A DNA stretch of 64,000 nt from positions 8,831,849-8,895,848 of the forward strand of contig NC_134522.1 in NCBI RefSeq assembly GCF_027942865.1, read 5' to 3'. Below the pieces are notes generated by a model that worked only from the letters and a program-made list of their open reading frames with translations, was not told the origin of the DNA and did no database searches. The position numbers and the translations under genes were made by a program. Of this stretch, positions 26,312 to 54,300 are shown piece by piece. Position 1 is the first letter of the stretch. Each line of letters starts with the position of its first letter. The DNA is from Odontesthes bonariensis (Eukaryota; Chordata; Actinopteri; Atheriniformes; Atherinopsidae).

Positions 26312-39535
<13,224 letters not shown>

Positions 39536-40204: not shown

Positions 40205-40855
40205 CTGTGTGTTCTTTAAAGTTTATTTGTGATGAAACTGGACGAATGGAGGACAAAAAAAGAAGTGTAAGACTTTTTACATCAGATGAACGATATGTGA
40301 AAGTGATGTCATTAAGAAATGAAGTGAGAGATGCATCTGGACCTTCAGTTGATCCATCTACTGTTGGCCCAAGCCTCATCAGAAATGGGCTCCATGGAAG
40401 GGTGGCTGTCAGGAAGCCGTTCTTAAGGAAGGGAAACAGGGAGAAAAGGCTGAGCTGTGCCAAATGACACTAGAGGCGGACTGAAAATCAGTGGCAGCAG
40501 GTCTGATGGAGGGATGAATCCTCCCCAGAGCCCGGACCTCAACATTATTGAAGCAGTGTGGGATCATCTTGACAGAGAAGGGAACAGCTTTCTAGAACTG
40601 TTCCGAAAGACTGCTTAAAGAAATGACAAGAAAGCTTATCAAACAGGATTCAGGTAGTGTTGAAGAATAAATGTGCTCAGACCAAATACTGACTTTCAAG
40701 CTTGTTAAATTTGTACAAATGCAGCTTTTATGTTATATACTGTATAACCGTTTATGTTTTCACACATTTCAATAAATCTCTGCACCCATTTCCTGCTTTC
40801 AGGGAAATATAAAGAAAAGACATCTGTCTCAAGATACTCTCAGGCTCCCTGTATA
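40205..40855 (+). mobile_element. Tc1/mariner copy A, internally deleted
   Basis: The plus strand encodes transposase pieces. First comes an N-terminal DNA-binding part (MEDKKRSVRLFTSDERYVKV onward). It then jumps to [20 protein letters not shown], which contains the Glu of the DDE triad. The middle catalytic part is missing. The right end (CTCCCTGTA) resembles the terminal repeat of the related copy at 46581-47530. The left boundary is approximate. Confidence 0.8.
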
Positions 40856-41854: not shown

Positions 41855-42020
41855 ATCAAATCAAATCAAAATCAAATCAAATTTATTTGTATAGCACATT
41901 TCATGTACAAACAGTTCAAAGTGCTTTACATAAAATAAAAGCATTGCAGCAGGGAGTGCAAGAAGCATTAAAAATACATAAAATAATATAAAGAGAAACA
42001 AATAAAATCATTTAAATGAA
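41855..42020 (-). repeat. LINE-type 3' tail with (ATTTG)n end (minus orientation)
   Basis: Reverse-complemented, this reads TTTTATGTAAAGCACTTTGA, then GTGCTATACAAATAAATTTG, and ends in repeats of ATTTG. This is the standard 3' end of a teleost non-LTR element. It lies in the presumed matn3 3' UTR or just beyond it. Confidence 0.6.
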
Positions 42021-42324
42021 TGTAAAATCAGACAACAGTCTAGATAAGTTAAAAGATATTTCATGCATAGACACATGAGAAAAGAAATGTTTTTAACCTG
42101 GTTACATTTTAAGTCTCTCTGTCAAGAGCAGCCTAAGCTATGAATGCAGGTTCATGATAAAAACAACACATCTACCACCAGTATATTGCATAAAAATTTG
42201 ACACTGTTTACATTTTTACTCCAAAATGAAGAGATTTGTGGATTACAAATTGTGACTTCGTCTGGTTGATTACACTGGATGCACTGAAAATCTGGAAATT
42301 TGTCTTTGGGTTGCATCAGAGTCC

Positions 42325-45300
42325 TTAATGTCGAAGATCACCTTCAAATGCGCTCACTTTGTCTGAAAGTTCATCAAGTGATCAAGTAGTAAAGGAACTT
42401 AAATTCCCTGGTAGGTTTTCATTAAAAGTGCCAATTAGACACAATAAGAAAATCTCATTTGCCCATTTTTCTTACATCACAGTCAAATGTTTGAAATCCT
42501 GCAATCAGATTCAGTTTGTGTGTATCAGGTAAAGGATATGTTTCCTGCTCAGCTCCTGGATGGTGGACTGCACTTTTTTCTGAAACACAATCTGAGCTTC
42601 ACACATGCAAGCATCTTCAGTTATTTCACTCCGCAATTCCTCTGAAACAATAAGAAGATAAGACGAAAAGTATCAAAGAGGTGCATGAGAGGACTGTGCT
42701 TACCTTCTGGACACTTAGAAAAAAAACACAGTTTTTATTTCTGTTTCAGTCAACACTCAATGTTAGATAAAATCAGATAAAAGTTAGGTGATATTTGAAA
42801 GGAAAACTATAACATATTGGTTTCCATACTGCAGCTGATATTAATCATGATTTTGATTGTGAGTAAAATCAGTTTCAACTATATAAATCCTTTAATCATC
42901 ACCCCAGAGTGCTTACTTATGGAGCTCAGTTGTGCACAGCTGTATGTGGGATAATAAGACACATCAACTTTAATTCAATCAAAATATCCACACAACTTTA
43001 ACACTTGAAAATAAAACTATCACAGCAAACAACATGCAAATTGTGTCAAATAATTTTTTTTAGATCTTTGCTTTGGTTCCTGATTGGATCCAGTGTGTCA
43101 TTTCTTGCACTGTATATTTCTTTGGTCTATAAACCATGCTGGACCAGTAGAAGTGCTCCTTGTCACTGGAATTTGAGGCCTTGGTTACAGTTAGATGCAG
43201 ACTTTCCCACAACTGAGCAATGCAAAAGGAAATATATAAATGTCATACCATTATAATTAAAACTGAAGTTATTGTTGGAGTTGCATTGCCATCTAAATCT
43301 ATTGACACGTATAAACCCAATCTGCATCATAGGCTTGGCTTTATTCTGTGGAGTTGGTACAGGATAATTTCACGTCAGCACTGATGTAGGAGCTTTTCAA
43401 CCAGAAGCACCCAGAACAAAACCTTTTAACATCCTGCTTTACTCGTTGGTAAAGCACATTTTAAAGTCTTTTCAAATATTTGAGGAAAACAAACCTACCA
43501 TAGCCACCTTAACTACATGGTTTAGTTACGTAGTGCTAAAAGGGATCGTATGTAATGTCATTACTGTGTGTGTCTACCCACCCGGGGCTTTTTTTTCCAG
43601 TTAACAGAGCTAAAAAGATTATTTCAGGCTCATATCTTTTGCATTTCCATTGCAGTCTAAGGTCAAGGGTAGATTAGGCTTATTAAATCTGCTGATGTGT
43701 TTGCTCCTCTCTGGCAAATCTTCCAGGAGTGTCGAAGGTGCGGCACTGGTCAGAAAGCAGACCAGCCAGGAAGTAAGCTTCAGCTACATTAACACAAAAT
43801 CTGTGAATGAAAAACATTTCTGCAGGGTCTTTGATATTTTCATTTGTGTCTTAGAGCACAACTGCTGTAATATGATTAAAAAAACATTGGAAATTTCTGC
43901 ACTGGCATATTTATAGAAGCCATTCAGTTTTACAAATCACCCCTGCTGATACACTGACTGCTGACTGACTTACTGTAGTTCAGGCCTAAATTACAATACT
44001 CCAAATGTTTTTTTAAACAGATGTTTCCCTCTGTTTGAAAAAAAAAATACGTCTGACCACATGAAAATGACAAAAAATTGCACAGTCGCAGAAATGATAA
44101 TGCAAAGCAAGGAGATGGCGACACGTCTATACTGAAGACATGTCAAAATGAGAGAGAACGTTCTTAGCATACCTAGTGAGTGGATTCCCTTTTTATGAGG
44201 TGAAGTATTTCCAAACATGGATTTAAAAAAGCAATTAGGCTGCCAAAGTTAACTAGATGTAGAAATATCGGTATATAGATGCTAGTGTTGCTGTGGTTTC
44301 CATTCTTTCAAAATCAATTTTTCTTACTTAAAACACTAATTGCATATGGGTGGATGAGAAGTGCATAAGCAGAAAGAAAGTTTGCTTATGCAAAATAATA
44401 TATGTTAGGAGGTACTGCACTTCAGTCAACATTTTTCTGTCACTCCAGTCGTATTCACTAAAACCTCTGCCAAACCGTGACATACCCTGTGCATGTAAGA
44501 AGCATCCGAGTAGCTTTAGGATCTGTTTTTTAATAACACAAAATATAGAGAGAAATGAAATTTCTTACGTGAGCATGTTTTCTTATCCATGTTCAGCACG
44601 TATCCCACTCGACACTTGCAAATGTACGAGTTCCCGTTGTTGACACATATGTGCTGGCAGTCGTGTCCCTGAGCACATGCGTCTGAGCCTGAGAGGAAAA
44701 ACTCATTCATCACCAACTTATGACATAAATGATCATCTGGGTTTTGGTGAGCCTTTGGTCTCATGTGTCTTCAAAAGAAAGGGACCCCACAGGCATGAGA
44801 ACTTTGGCTTCAGCATGCCCTATCCCATACCTTCTTCACATTGACCTGAGGTTTTCACTGCTCACTTAGATTTAGAGCAATGGAAACCAATCACAAACGT
44901 AGTGCTTGTGTCTGTTCACACCAAAAACACCAAACATGGATAGTGTAATGAAGAATCTAAATTCTTACTTGAGCATGTTTTCTGGTCTGCATTCAATACA
45001 TATCCCACTCGACACTTGCAGACATACGAGTCACCACTTTTGACACAAATATGCTGACAGTCATGTCCCTGGGCACATATATCCGATCCTGAAAAGAAAC
45101 ACTTCCATAGTTGATGACGAAATCCAAGAAGCTCCGTTCTTATCACTCTTTAGTTTGGAAAATGACATGTTAAGGTACTGGAAAACAAAGGAAAGTTCCA
45201 GCTTCTTACGTGAGCACGTTTTACGGTCAGCATTCAACATATATCCTGTTTCACATATGCATGTGTACGAGTCATCGGTGCGGACACAAATGTGCTGGCA

Positions 45301-48300
45301 GTCATGTCCGTCTGCACATGTTTCTGAACCTGAAAGGGAAGACTTTCACATCTACCTGGCTAAATTTACTTCAACAATAGAAGAACAACCTGATTGCTGT
45401 AAACCACATTAGAAAGAGACCATTAGAAAACTGGTTCCTATATGAGCATGTGTTCTGGTCTGCACTCAACACAAATCCTTCTTGAGATTCACAGATATAT
45501 GAGTCATCAGTGTTGATGCAAATATGCTGGCACTCATGTCCCTGAGCACATGTGCATGGACCTAAAGCGAGTATGTATAAAATATACACATATGTAAAAA
45601 TCCAGTTTCTTCTGAGAGCATGTTTTCTGGTCTGCATTCAACACATATCCCTCTTGACACTTGCAAAGGTAAGTATCAGCATTTGTGACACAAATATGCT
45701 GACAGCCATGCCTCTGGATACACAAATCTGAACCTGAAAGAAACACTTCAAAACTTACACCAACAAATCTAGACAGATACAATCACATACTTTATATCTA
45801 ATCCCTCCTTTAACCAAGCACAGTGCACTTACAACCGTTCAAGACATGGTGATCATAGGAAAGTCTTACGTGAGCATGTTTTTTGGTCTGCATTTAGCAT
45901 ATACCCCACTTGGCACATGCAGATATAAGAGTCATCACTGTTTTCACAAATGTGCTGGCAATCATGTCCACGGGCACATGGATCAGAACCTGAAAAGAGA
46001 CACATCAGCATGTATCTGACAACTAAGGACATCAGGTACATGGAGTTTGGCCTTTAAGATGCTCTGTCTGCCATTGTTTAAGTTTAAGAAGATGCTCAAT
46101 TAATGTTATTCAGACTCAGATTAACAGCTGAAAAAGCACACAAGAAACACCAACTCTATGTAAATCTGTACATGCTGCTGCAATTTGGTTTTATGGGCTG
46201 TGACAGCTACAAATAAAGAAGTTACATATTGAAAAATAAATGAAAACTTCTGCTATGTTCTCCTTAAAAAAACTCCCCAAATCACTAAGAGCTGGTGGTT
46301 CCTTGGCCTAAAAGAAGTCACTGTACAACTGCATTAGTCTAAAGACTCTACCGAAGCTTTTAGAAAAAAAAGATACAGTTATAAGTGCTAAAAGCAATCA
46401 AAATCTTTACTATGTCTTATTACTATAAAGATATTTCTGTTTCAGCTTCAGCAGTTGCAGCGATAGTCTAACTAGAGCTTTCAGGTGGCTCCTGCCAAGT
46501 TGTATTTTATGCAATAAAACAGATATTTATGCCTTTTTAATAAATGCAAGTCATGGGAAACTTGCAATATTTGATGCATACAGTTCTGTGCAAAAATCTT
46601 GAAAAACCCGTCATTTCTTTATATGCTCCCAGGAAAACGGGAAATAAGCGCAAACATAAGTGGAATTATTTTATATATCAAAAACAGAAACTGTACAGAT
46701 TAGCTATTCTGATGAGCTTGAAAGACATTATTTGGTATGAGCACCATGGCTGCCTTAAGTTCCGTTCTCTGTCAACATGATCCCACACTGCTTCAATAAT
46801 GTTGAAGTCCGGGCTCTGGGGAGGATTCATCCCTCCATCAGACCTGTTGCCACTGATTTTCAGCCCACTTCTTGTGTTTTTGGCACAGCTCAGATTTTTC
46901 TCCCTGTTTCCCTACCTTAATAATGGCTTCTTGACAGTCATTCTTAGTTTTTAGGCCTGACACTTCTTCTTTTGTCCTCCACTTGTTCAGTTTCCTCAAA
47001 TGTTTTAAGACACACTGCACACCATGCTGAGATATGCCAAGTTTTCAGCTAATAGCTCTTTGGAAATCACCTTGTTGGAACAAAAATATGATTTTTTGTC
47101 AAATTGGTTAGCTTTAGTTTTTTTTTTCAGCGATGCAAATAAGGAAAATGGAACACATGGTGTCTTTGTGACAAATTGCTGGTAACAAAGTGATTACAGA
47201 CACCATTTAAAATTGTTCTTTGCTAAGTCATCTGTTATGTGTAGTGAACACTGGTTCATCCCCTTGAGTTAGGTGCCTTTTAATGCTTGAATGACTCAAC
47301 TGGTCCTGAATTGGATGAAGCAGGTGGGGTAGATGGATGGATTTAGAGGTCAGTGTTAAGAGGAAAAAAATGTTCCTCTGAAAATGGTCGGGTACATGGA
47401 CTACAGTGAAAATGAGTGAAAAAGCAGCCACTATCCACAGAAAGTTCAGAGAACTGTTTCTCAAGAACACTTAAAAAAATTACAAGAAAGTCTGAAATGA
47501 GGGATGGATCAACACTTTCAAACAGCACTGTACATCCCATGCATCATAAATCAACATATCTGCGTACTTGCTTTTCTTCATTTAAAATAATCTAAACCAT
47601 GTTCCCTGCCACTCAAAACATTAATGACAGTCCATCAATTGATAACTCTGTCAAACCTGTAGAAATGAAACAAAGTTGTAAGTAAAACCTGGGACAATGC
47701 ACCAAGAGATGGTATAAAATGTTCTTACGTGAGCATGTTTTGGTGTCTGCATTCAACAGATATCCACTGTGACACATGCAGACATTAGAATCACCATTTT
47801 TGACACAAATGTGTTGGCAATCATGTCCTTGGGAACATGTGTCCATACCTGAAAAGAAAAGCTTTCACATAAACAACATAAAATCGCACACAAGCTAAAC
47901 CCTCTTGTGTTCACCAAAGCTAAGCTGTGCTTTGGAAACCAACTCTTAGTATGTTAATAGATGATACCTATAAACCTTCAGCCATGCTGAACACAAAACA
48001 AGGTGCCAAAACTACTGGTCTGCATTCAATACAAGTCCCTCTCAACATTTGCAGATGCAAAAGTCATCATTGCTGAGACAAATTTGTTGGCAGTCATGTC
48101 CTTCTGCACATATCTGAGCCTGAAAAGACACTTCCATCTCTAAAATAACTGAGTCTTACTGCATTTGTGCAGAAGCTCTAAATTATCTAAATATCACATG
48201 AGGACAAATCCCTCTTCAGTTTAAACACATTTTAGACTTATTATAAATCACATTATCTGAGTGTACACAAACATTAATAGGTGGAGATCATGACCCACAA

Positions 48301-51300
48301 CCTGAGGGTCATGACTCAAAATTGATGACTCAAAATGGTGGCGTATCACTGCTTTAAAGGGGTAATATATCACAGATTAAATCTCCACAACACTAGTTTC
48401 ATGAGGTTGTATATTATCCCTTTAAATCATTTTTAACTTGGGTCTTGTGTCTTCTTGTAACTTTGTTTGATTTTATGTTTTTTGTAATAATTTTGTATAA
48501 GACATATTATCATTTTCAGTTTCTAAAATTGCAGACACGCATACATTTTTCATTTTCCAGCACACCCTGCGCTCTGGTGTTAAACTTCATTGTAATTTCA
48601 GTTTTTTCACTTAGGTTCATCTCTGACATTATGATGCCTGTTATTTGTATATGCAAAACAATTTGGTTTGGGTTCGGAAAATATCCTGTTGTGGCGTATA
48701 ATGAAGCCTTTTTAAAACCTGCATGTTCCTTTCAAATTGTCCCTACTGTACAGAGCTGTCACTCTCCACATATTTCTTCAAATGCATTCAAATTTCCATT
48801 CCCGCAAATAATAGGCAGTTGTGTCAAACCATGTGATGTCCAGAAATGTTTGGATTCCACCCTGATGGTTCCACCCACTCCACTACCTCAATTGGGTGGC
48901 AAGCTAGGAGATCAATCTACAGATTTGCTGTTGTTGTCAAGTAAGACAACTACTTGGTACAAATTACCTTATTTTTGTTTGTCACATTGCCATTTATGGT
49001 ATTAAATCCAAATTCTTCCAAACACTGCTTTTCAGAAAACTTTAGTGTTGTGCCAGTCTCTCTAGGGATGGAGGTGAAATGTCTTCAAGAACCAAGAAAA
49101 TAATTTAGGAGTCCACTTCGGATGTCTTCACTCACTAGTTTCCTCAATATTTGCAGCAGCAAACATACCGTTAACTAAATTGAATGACGGCATAACGACA
49201 AGCGGATCAAGGCCAAGCTAATACTTGAGCGCCCTCTGCTAAATCAAGACAAACTACTTCTACGGGTCTGGTTCTGGTTGTGGTTCGTTTCTATTCATAC
49301 TACCATCTGAGTTGACTGTGCCGTGGCTTCCTATGCAATGGCATGTAATCAGTTTGCAATAGGTTGTAGAGATGTGGATAATGGAGATTCTCTTCCAAAG
49401 GCTCTCCTCAAATCTAGCGTCTTGTTAGTCTGTCTTTTTTCTGAATGGAGATTGATCCGGGCTCATGTGTTAGTGTGCTCAGTCTACACGGTAAGACATT
49501 TTTTGGCATGACAGAGGGAGCCAGTGGACTCTCACAGACTGGCGCAGAACATCAAATTTACATCACACAGGCCTTGCAAACATGCAAATTAAAAAAAAAA
49601 ACATGAATTGCCTTTAAAACATCTCTCAATGCAGCGAATGAGCAAATGATACAAAGTACTTATAGATTAGAATTTGAATGGTGTACTGATCAAAGTGACC
49701 TACAGTTGTATGTGACAAAGTGCGAGTGACACTGAGATACTTATGTTTGGTCTGTATAAGGGATGGCTAGATCGACTCTGCTTGGGCTAGTGGAACAAGT
49801 TAAATATCAGGGTTTAAGCTGTCTCATTCACGTCGAGGCATTTAACAAATGTTACCTAGAAAATTATTGTGAAGACGTTTTTCATTCCTTTAATCATTTA
49901 TGCTCTTTGTGTCATTGTTCTTGGCATCCATAACTCTTGACATTTAATCTTGACATGTTAATGAAAACAGATATGTGTCACAACAGCTTAGAAATATAAT
50001 TCAGAAAGAAAGTTAACGTTCTTACGTGAACATGTTTTCTGGTCTGCATTCAACACATATCCCATTCGACACTTGCAGGTGTATGAGTCACCATTGTTGA
50101 TACAAATGTGCTGGCAGTCATGCCCCTGGGCACAAGCATCTGAACCTGCAAAGAAAAAAATCCCTCATGAGACTGACACAGTTTTTAGTTGGGAGATAAC
50201 AGTGAGGAGTTTCTGCTTTTAGGAGTTTGTGACGCTCATTAGTCTGGGCTCTCACCATGCTCTGCTTACATAGTTTGTGCTGAATGGTGTTAGCCCAACT
50301 ATTTGGGACAAGCAAAAACACTTACAACAAGAGATGGTATGCAGTGTTGGCAGTACAATGTACTAACTTAGTATCCCATGGTTCCATTTGAATATCTACA
50401 AAAACATTTTTTGTTTCTTTCCATCTAATTCCAGATCAAATCTTAACAATATTCAGTCAAAATACAATGTTTGTGACAGTTTTTTTAAAGAGTGAATAAA
50501 GCTGTGGGCTTTTTAGATGCAAAAGTCCAAACATAAACACAAAGATTCTTACCTGAGCATGTTTTCATGTCCGGATTTAAGACATAGCCTGGAGGACATT
50601 TGCAGTTGTATGAGTTGCCGCTGTTGACACAAATATGTTGGCAATTGTGTCCTTGAGCACATGGATCCGAACCTGAAAGGAAATACTTGATTGTCTTATT
50701 GGCTTAAGTCTAGTGAAATCAGTTATTCAGTGTTTTAATTTTGTGTTAGTGGGTATGTGAGTAGTTAGATAATCTACAACATGCAGGTTATTGCAGGATC
50801 TCTGTGATTCATCCACAGTGATGTTATACTGAATTTATTTGTTTCAAATTAGAGTCATTTGAAAGTGGGGAGAGAGGAATATTGTAACGGTGCATTGGCT
50901 TTTGAACTTAGAACACCATCTGGATTTTCCAAGAAAATTCAAGACAGTACAGTTCAAATATAAAATTCTACTGAAAGCTTTTTCATATCCATTGTGTCTT
51001 CAGTTGGACCATCACAGCTGCTGTTAAACAGAAGTTATTCTCAGTGAAACACAGAGTGTGGTTAAATACACTTGATAGGTTCAACCACATAATTAAGAGC
51101 AAACTTTCCCGCCAAACATACATATGACACGCATCGAGAAAGTCGTGTGACTGGAACATGCAGCCTTAAGCTTGCTAGTTTAGGTGCTACCACAAGTTGG
51201 AGGGTGACATGTAAATATGGACATTTATATTATTAAGATGGTGAAAACTTAATAACGGGGGGGGGGAGAGACGCACCAAACTTAGGGGCAGCTGGTTTGA

Positions 51301-54300
51301 CCATAGAGAATTGAACATCCGCCTGCTTTGAAGTCCTAACCGGCCAGCTAGTTTCCAGCCAAAGCAGAATCTGATGCAGCAACTTACTGGGTTAGACTTA
51401 TCAATGGCTGCCCTCTCATTTCCCACTGTAACTGGCATCGGCTTATCATTAGCCAGATCAGTAGCTGGCTTTGACAAAGGGTAGTCAGTACCATCTTCTG
51501 TTCTCCAAGAGAATGGGATTTTCTTCTTGAGGGTTTTTTACAAACCCTGGTTGTCTGTTAACAGCTATAAACGTAATCATTGTAAAGGAAAAAGCCAGAC
51601 ATTTGAATGCTATACTACTGGAATTATCAGATATATTAGTTACAGGACTCATGTATAGCCTTACCTCAATCCTCAATCTGACATTGCAAGTAGGCTACTC
51701 CATGAGGGAGTGCAAAAATAGTTCAGATATAAATCCTACTGTTACTCTTTGGGTACTCTACAAATAATGTTAAATATGAAAAATCATGCTTTCATTTTAA
51801 ATTCACCCTCATTCTTTCCCACTTCTGATATCACCCAAATTCTTCTTAGCACTTTGCAGTTGGGTTAGATCAGGAGTTATTGCAGCCTCTGTAGAACACT
51901 TAAATATGCATATATGAACCAGCAAAATGCACCATTTTGCTTTTTTTCTCCATAACAAGTTCTTCCTTTTATGTTGGGTTTAATCTAATGTACATATTTA
52001 TTTTTTTTTCTTTTTGTAAGGTTTCAACAAATTATATATAATTTGTAGCCTACACCATAGTGCTGGTTGGAAGTTTTAAAAGTTACTTTTGGAAAGAGCC
52101 AACCAGTAACTTCCAGCACTTGTGCTAAGCTAAGCTAACTAAGAGTTGAATCAAACACTCTGTTAGCTTAATTTAGCTTAGCTTGTGCAGAAAAAAAAAA
52201 GCTATATTCCAAACATTTTTAGAACAATTTTTACATTTTAAAGTTACAATGACAAGAAGTAATTTCTCATTGTAAGCTTTTGCATTTTTGTTAGCATAGT
52301 TAGAGATAAACTTTAGGCTAGAGGTTCATTCGGAGCAAACTTTGAATAAAATTTTGTCAGTAAAAATATGTCCACTCAAATACATTTCAGTCACATTTAG
52401 CGCAATCTCGTAGAACTTTTGCCTTGCACGATAGTTGCTGTTAAGCTATCAGCGGTTGCAGAAGCCTGAGCTGGGGACTAGCTTAGCACACCTCCAGCTA
52501 ATGGAGCATGGCACATATGGCATGCAGCACAAAATGCAGTGCAGCCAGCGAACAGCATTGCACATCCTGTGAACAGTACAGACAGCACCATATTGAGTTT
52601 CCAACATTTTAAAGTATGTAAATTTTGCTCTGAGTCAGCAAGTGATCAGAGTTTTGTCCCCTTCTTTAAGTTGGTTAGTGTGACATTTTTTGTACATGTT
52701 TAATGCTGAAAGCATCAATACCACTCAACTTCTCACCATTCATATGGCAACAGTTGGTGGGACAACCAGTGGTTACCATGGCCTTCTTTTCAAGACCAAA
52801 GAAGAGGACTGGTGACTTTAGAATGAAGATTCCCTCTATGGTGCTGCCAGGTGACGATCACAGGTGAATATAAGAGGACGGATCTGACATACCGTTGTTT
52901 CCTTTATTGTCACGTTCATTATCTATTCCATTACCGTCTTTCCTGTCATTTAGGTCTAGTCCGTTATCATCTACTGGAATATCTGCACTCCCATTATCAT
53001 CATCCTTACCACACAAGGTTTCCCTAAATTTGGATGTGAGCTTCTCTATGACACCATAGGTTTCCACATAGAAGACATGGTCATCATGAGGGCGGCTGGC
53101 CATGAGCCGGAGGGACGTCATATCAGCTCTATCTACTCCCACTGCGTAGATCTCAATCCCAGATGCTCGGGCTGCTGCTGACACCTCCTCCACCTTGTCC
53201 TGAGGCCTCCCGTCTGTCACTATGATGGCCACCTTGGCGATGTTCGTGGAGCCAGCTCGGGCCCCGGCCTCCTTGGTGAAAGCTTTCTCCATGGCGGTTT
53301 TGATGGCCATGCCCGTCATGGTGCCTGAAGCGAGGGGCTCAACACGAGCCAATGCCTGCTTCAGGGAGGACTTGTCAGAATACATGTTGAGCAGAAACTC
53401 GATCTGCACTGTGCTGGCATAATTAACGAGGCCGACTCGAGTGGCATCAGAGCCGATGGCCAAGCTGTCCACCGTGTCCTGCAGAAAGTCCTTGGCCTTT
53501 TCGAACTCAGCAGGGCGTACGCTGCGCGAGCTGTCTATGATGAAGACCAGGTCTATTGGCTGATTTCTGCAATTGGATCTTGTTGCTATAAAAAAATTGA
53601 AAATTGATGATTTTAATATATTTGCAAGGGTGAATATGCTAAATTCTAACTGTTACTAGTAGAAAATAAACAGGTGAAATACAGTGCAAAGCCAAATCCC
53701 AATACCTACTCAATAGTTGGGACACCTGTTAACCAACGTTTATAATTATTATGACTAAATTTTGGGAAACCAGAAGCTGTGATTGGGATAAGTGTGACAA
53801 CTTTTTTTTATATGACATTTCCAAGACTTTCTATACCTCATCAGTTACTTTTGACTTGATTAGGTTTTTAATTTGAACTAAACATCCATAACATTCTGAG
53901 GACTATTACCTGCTAAGTTGGTGCCTCATGTTTTCCAGCAATCACATTTACACCAACCAAAAATGTTTCAACTAAAATTAAGAATATTCCATTAAAAATC
54001 GATATGCTCTGTATTTTGGATTTCCTTGCAACTAAATTTTGACGAATATGTTTCATATTTAAATGTCTAAAGACTACTTTTTTTGGTCTCATGTAAAACT
54101 TTTGTGTGAGCTTTGACGCTTAAAAATATGCCATTTGATTGTTTGATGTTTTCTTACAAGATATATTACTTTAACATTCCCAAAAATGTTTTATGTGAAA
54201 CATACAGAGTAAAATTCAGGGTTTTCGAGGGCTAAAGCCTATTACAAGAGGTGGGGTGCATGGACAGGTCACTGGGAAGATATTAAAATGTATCATATGA

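Follow-up and report, generated by a model that had tools for sequence, protein, structure and literature searches.

The window, that is, the whole stretch of 64,000 nucleotides of DNA analysed here, carries the gene matn3 on its minus strand, with WDR35 lying downstream of it on the same strand. Matrilins are defined by the order of their domains, namely von Willebrand A (vWA), EGF-like, and a C-terminal trimeric coiled coil. All three were found at this locus in that order and on one strand: a vWA open frame at 52858..53652 (minus strand; PF00092, E 3.3e-51), EGF-like exons recognized by pattern only, and a coiled coil matching PF10393. Matrilin-3 has a single vWA domain. A search with the vWA query showed that one of the 134 matches listed falls in the window, and this, together with the adjoining WDR35, points to matrilin-3. 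The WDR35 assignment comes from a joined query of two open-frame pieces at 38035..38406 (minus strand), which matched WD repeat-containing protein 35 with an E value of 4.5e-48. The closest vWA copy among the matches listed is that of a paralogue on contig C29, with 77% identity; the next by E value is 52% identical. Excerpts from PMC1464127 state that MATN3 and WDR35 are among the conserved neighbours of syndecan-1 in human, mouse, and chicken, and that zebrafish and Tetraodon possess two matrilin-3 paralogues. The presence of two matrilin-3-like genes in the genome analysed here agrees with a teleost origin.

Between the vWA domain and the coiled coil, a motif search of positions 42001-54000 revealed ten EGF-like exon copies on the minus strand, the outer limits of whose open frames are 44516..50703. 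Seven of the ten are open and are followed by GT where a donor is expected; the other three lack it. The copy at 48101 contains stops and has no donor, that at 45713 shows AG instead of the donor GT, and that at 45541 shows AT at this point and is missing one cysteine. Judged from their sequences, these three copies look decayed. Human MATN3 has four EGF domains. Of three matches to the pattern in the C29 paralogue, one reads as an EGF exon.

Several repeats were also observed. Within the window, the open-frame pieces at 40454-40618 (plus strand) and 46678-46911 (minus strand) contain (L/F)NIIEAVWDH, which resembles the end of a Tc1/mariner transposase, and a CAAAT-repeat stretch at 41857-41925 runs into ATTTATTTGTATAGCACATTTCATGTACAAA, which resembles the tail of a retroelement common in fish. 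On contig C17 (L037-L044, G000:C17:13098000-13177200), the minus strand has, within 79 kb, 69 open frames that contain a vWA motif and are at least 150 codons long. Two exon types alternate in the array, one with 29 copies and a mean identity of 99.35% over 480 nt, the other with 28 copies and a mean identity of 98.3% over the same length; the units measure about 1.67 kb, with one of 2492, and no copy of either type has a stop within the 480 nt that were compared. These vWA frames are followed by five short Gly-X-Y stretches of collagen type. The array resembles collagen VI alpha 3 but is far longer, and it may be an assembly error. No paper on this vWA array was found in the literature search.

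The penultimate coding exon of matn3 (42540..42641, minus strand) encodes the first two thirds of the coiled coil and was recognized by Pfam PF10393. It consists of two bases that finish a codon, 33 residues, and the first base of the next codon, and by eye a TTTCAG acceptor precedes position 42641. The coding part of the last exon (42325..42377, minus strand) encodes a coil tail of 17 residues followed by a TAA stop. Between the two lies the last coding intron of the gene, which like matn3 itself is on the minus strand and which occupies 42378..42539 (162 nt, phase 1), exactly the coordinates and length given by the initial annotation. When 42540 is joined to 42377, a codon split in phase 1 (C|TT) is completed and an in-frame end of the coiled coil is restored. 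A 10-nt mini-exon at 42713-42704, noticed by eye, was dropped, as it breaks the frame. One plus-strand frame of 42200-42400 contains two stops and nothing matrilin-like, the gene being on the minus strand.

U12-type AT-AC introns are characterized by the 5′ splice site ATATCCTT and by a branch site, TTCCTTRAY, near the 3′ end. The intron of matn3 begins with ATATCCTTT (42531..42539, minus strand), which has the form ATATCCTT of this class. The branch-like site TTCCTTTAC (42389..42397, minus strand) agrees with TTCCTTRAY in eight of nine letters, with T in place of R. Its branch A is position 42390, and the intron ends 12 nt farther on with AC (42378..42379, minus strand), the acceptor of U12-type AT-AC introns. 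The donor, branch-like site, and AC acceptor claimed by the initial annotation are thus all present, and the branch A lies 12 nt from the end of the intron. Translation also bore out its false stop: reading on past 42540 leaves the frame open for nine codons beyond the boundary and ends the protein in ...HILYLIHTN.

That the two exon pieces form one coil was seen from comparison with known proteins. The spliced peptide scored 63.6 bits against the Pfam family Matrilin_ccoil (PF10393), compared with 52.1 bits for the read-through peptide, both above the family cut-off of 26.3 bits. In addition, cartilage matrix protein (1aq5) aligned to query residues 4-46 with an E value of 5.4e-05, so that the junction, which follows residue 33, is spanned by the alignment. 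The statement that splicing restores the end of the coiled coil in frame was upheld by these two comparisons.

The chance level of the splice motifs was determined in the window. The donor 9-mer ATATCCTTT has one match, compared with 0.63 expected, and at least one match occurred in 46 of 100 shuffles; the branch-like site followed by AC has three matches, compared with 1.82 expected, and at least three occurred in 29 of 100 shuffles. The donor motif alone and the branch motif alone are each at chance level in the window and were therefore rejected as evidence; the evidence for the intron is instead the combination of motifs together with its position. A pattern of three parts (the donor, 30-1000 nt, and the branch-like site with AC) occurs once when both strands of the window are scanned, a raw count, and this sole match sits at the interruption of the coiled coil. 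The GT form of the donor, counted genome-wide, gave 6550 places compared with 9974 for a reversed control and was set aside as uninformative on the matn3 intron.

A search of the genome with PF10393 (E values up to 10) gave 15 places, five of which pass the family cut-off; these five matrilin coiled-coil exons, namely that of the window and those on contigs C29, C23, C3, and C6, were compared, and the ten places below the cut-off were left out. The results showed that all five have the donor ATATCCTT at the same codon position and in phase 1, and that in all five a branch-like site is followed, 9-12 nt farther on, by an AC and then by an in-frame tail. The tail played no part in the choice of donor position and phase in the paralogues. 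Their 3′ sites were picked from ranked candidates with a coil-like tail among the criteria, and the tails are accordingly not fully independent evidence; one ranking comprised the best 14 candidates per gene, and another was restricted to tails of 12-28 residues. For C23, a site with a branch score of 7 and a coil-like tail was chosen over one candidate with a score of 8 and several with a score of 7. Defined in this way, the introns and their branch-like sites are as follows: 199 nt on C29, with TTCCTTAAC and 10 nt to the AC end; 128 nt on C23, with GCCCTTGAC and 11 nt; 970 nt on C6, with TTCTTTAAC and 9 nt; and 1811 nt on C3, with TTCCTTAAT and 12 nt. The paralogues thus share with matn3 the donor, phase, codon position, and AC acceptor, whereas their branch-like sites differ and intron length across the five coil exons ranges from 128 to 1811 nt, with 162 nt in the window. 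A constant AT-AC form combined with a varying length is what one would expect if the splice signals, and not the body of the intron, are conserved. The spliced form scored higher than the read-through form against Matrilin_ccoil in every case besides that of the window: 70.9 compared with 53.4 bits for C29, 72.5 compared with 51.6 for C23, 50.8 compared with 33.8 for C6, and 62.9 compared with 43.6 for C3.

These comparisons bear on two other ways of reading the locus. The coil exon could be terminal, with no intron removed and a protein ending in ...HILYLIHTN; the nine open codons past the boundary and the score of the truncated coil, which remains above the Pfam cut-off, agree with such an ending. 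However, the read-through form scores below the spliced form in all five matrilin coil exons, the five read-through ends have in common only the H/N-I-L encoded by the donor itself, and the piece downstream of the intron continues the coil, so that a terminal coil exon appears extremely improbable. A nearby GT-AG intron could alternatively be used instead of the AT-AC intron. When 86 GT-AG pairs giving introns of at least 60 nt were tried, six reached the frame of the tail, but every one of these six deletes part of the conserved coil, and the GT-AG donor position differs from that of the donors in the paralogues. We regard the use of a GT-AG intron here as scarcely credible.

The reading of the initial annotation, by which a U12-type AT-AC intron interrupts the coiled coil of matn3, therefore stands: donor, branch-like site, acceptor, phase, and protein end agree with it, as do the five coil exons, and WDR35 adjoins the gene. 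Taken together, the sequence comparisons indicate, with a probability of about 0.97, that the intron is the U12-type AT-AC intron conserved in the matrilin family, and that the gene containing it is one of two matrilin-3-like genes in the genome of a fish, probably a teleost.

In the minor spliceosome, U11 pairs with the donor and U12 with the branch site, and the U4atac/U6atac.U5 particle completes the complex. The U12, U6atac, U11, and U4atac RNAs each have at least one match in the genome above the Rfam cut-off; part of the candidates was scored, and the match counts are lower bounds. In the mechanism that we propose, the U11 and U12 snRNPs would recognize the donor and branch site of matn3, U4atac/U6atac.U5 would join them, and the minor spliceosome, as expected from established knowledge of this machinery, would remove the intron of 162 nt. 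Its removal would complete the coiled coil that trimerizes the protein, while a transcript that retained it would encode HILYLIHTN in place of the last 17 residues.

Retention of the last coding intron might also serve to produce a matrilin whose coil is shortened. Across the five matrilin genes, retention would introduce a stop after 3 to 22 codons, and of the 45 positions in the coil profile the retained forms still match 26 to 34. Provided that the 3′-UTR contains no further intron, a retained transcript would have no junction downstream of the stop and could escape nonsense-mediated decay, which could alter chain assembly. We consider this use very unlikely.

For gene prediction, it is plausible that programs allowing only GT-AG introns truncate or mis-model matn3, as the initial annotation had warned; the trial of 86 GT-AG pairs, in which the six that reach the frame of the tail lose part of the coil, is in keeping with this. 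Gene finders could usefully be tested on the locus, since the shortened coil scores above the Pfam cut-off and a truncated model would go on being labelled matrilin.

The intron of matrilin-1 (cartilage matrix protein) was among the first AT-AC introns recognized, and in the matrilin genes, mouse Matn3 included, the AT-AC intron reportedly lies in the coiled-coil region. An AT-AC intron in mouse Matn3 is announced in the title of one paper (Wagener 2000, cited in PMC2427018), and that of another names human matrilin-2 and the conservation of an AT-AC intron in matrilin genes (Muratoglu 2000, cited in PMC6865273 and PMC1464127); an excerpt from PMC6865273 places minor introns in all four matrilin genes. 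No paper with a title on the introns of fish matrilin-3 genes was found in our literature search, the scope of which left out most subscription papers. As these papers of 2000 had already described the AT-AC intron in mouse Matn3 and in the matrilin genes, the present finding is an ordinary one: it is the correct reading of an already known feature in another species, and it extends by one the species in which this conserved minor intron is known. By their titles, the introns described in 2000 for mouse Matn3 (Wagener 2000) and for matrilin genes (Muratoglu 2000) belong to the same gene family as matn3 of the window and are, like its intron, of the U12-type AT-AC class, but they differ from it in species.
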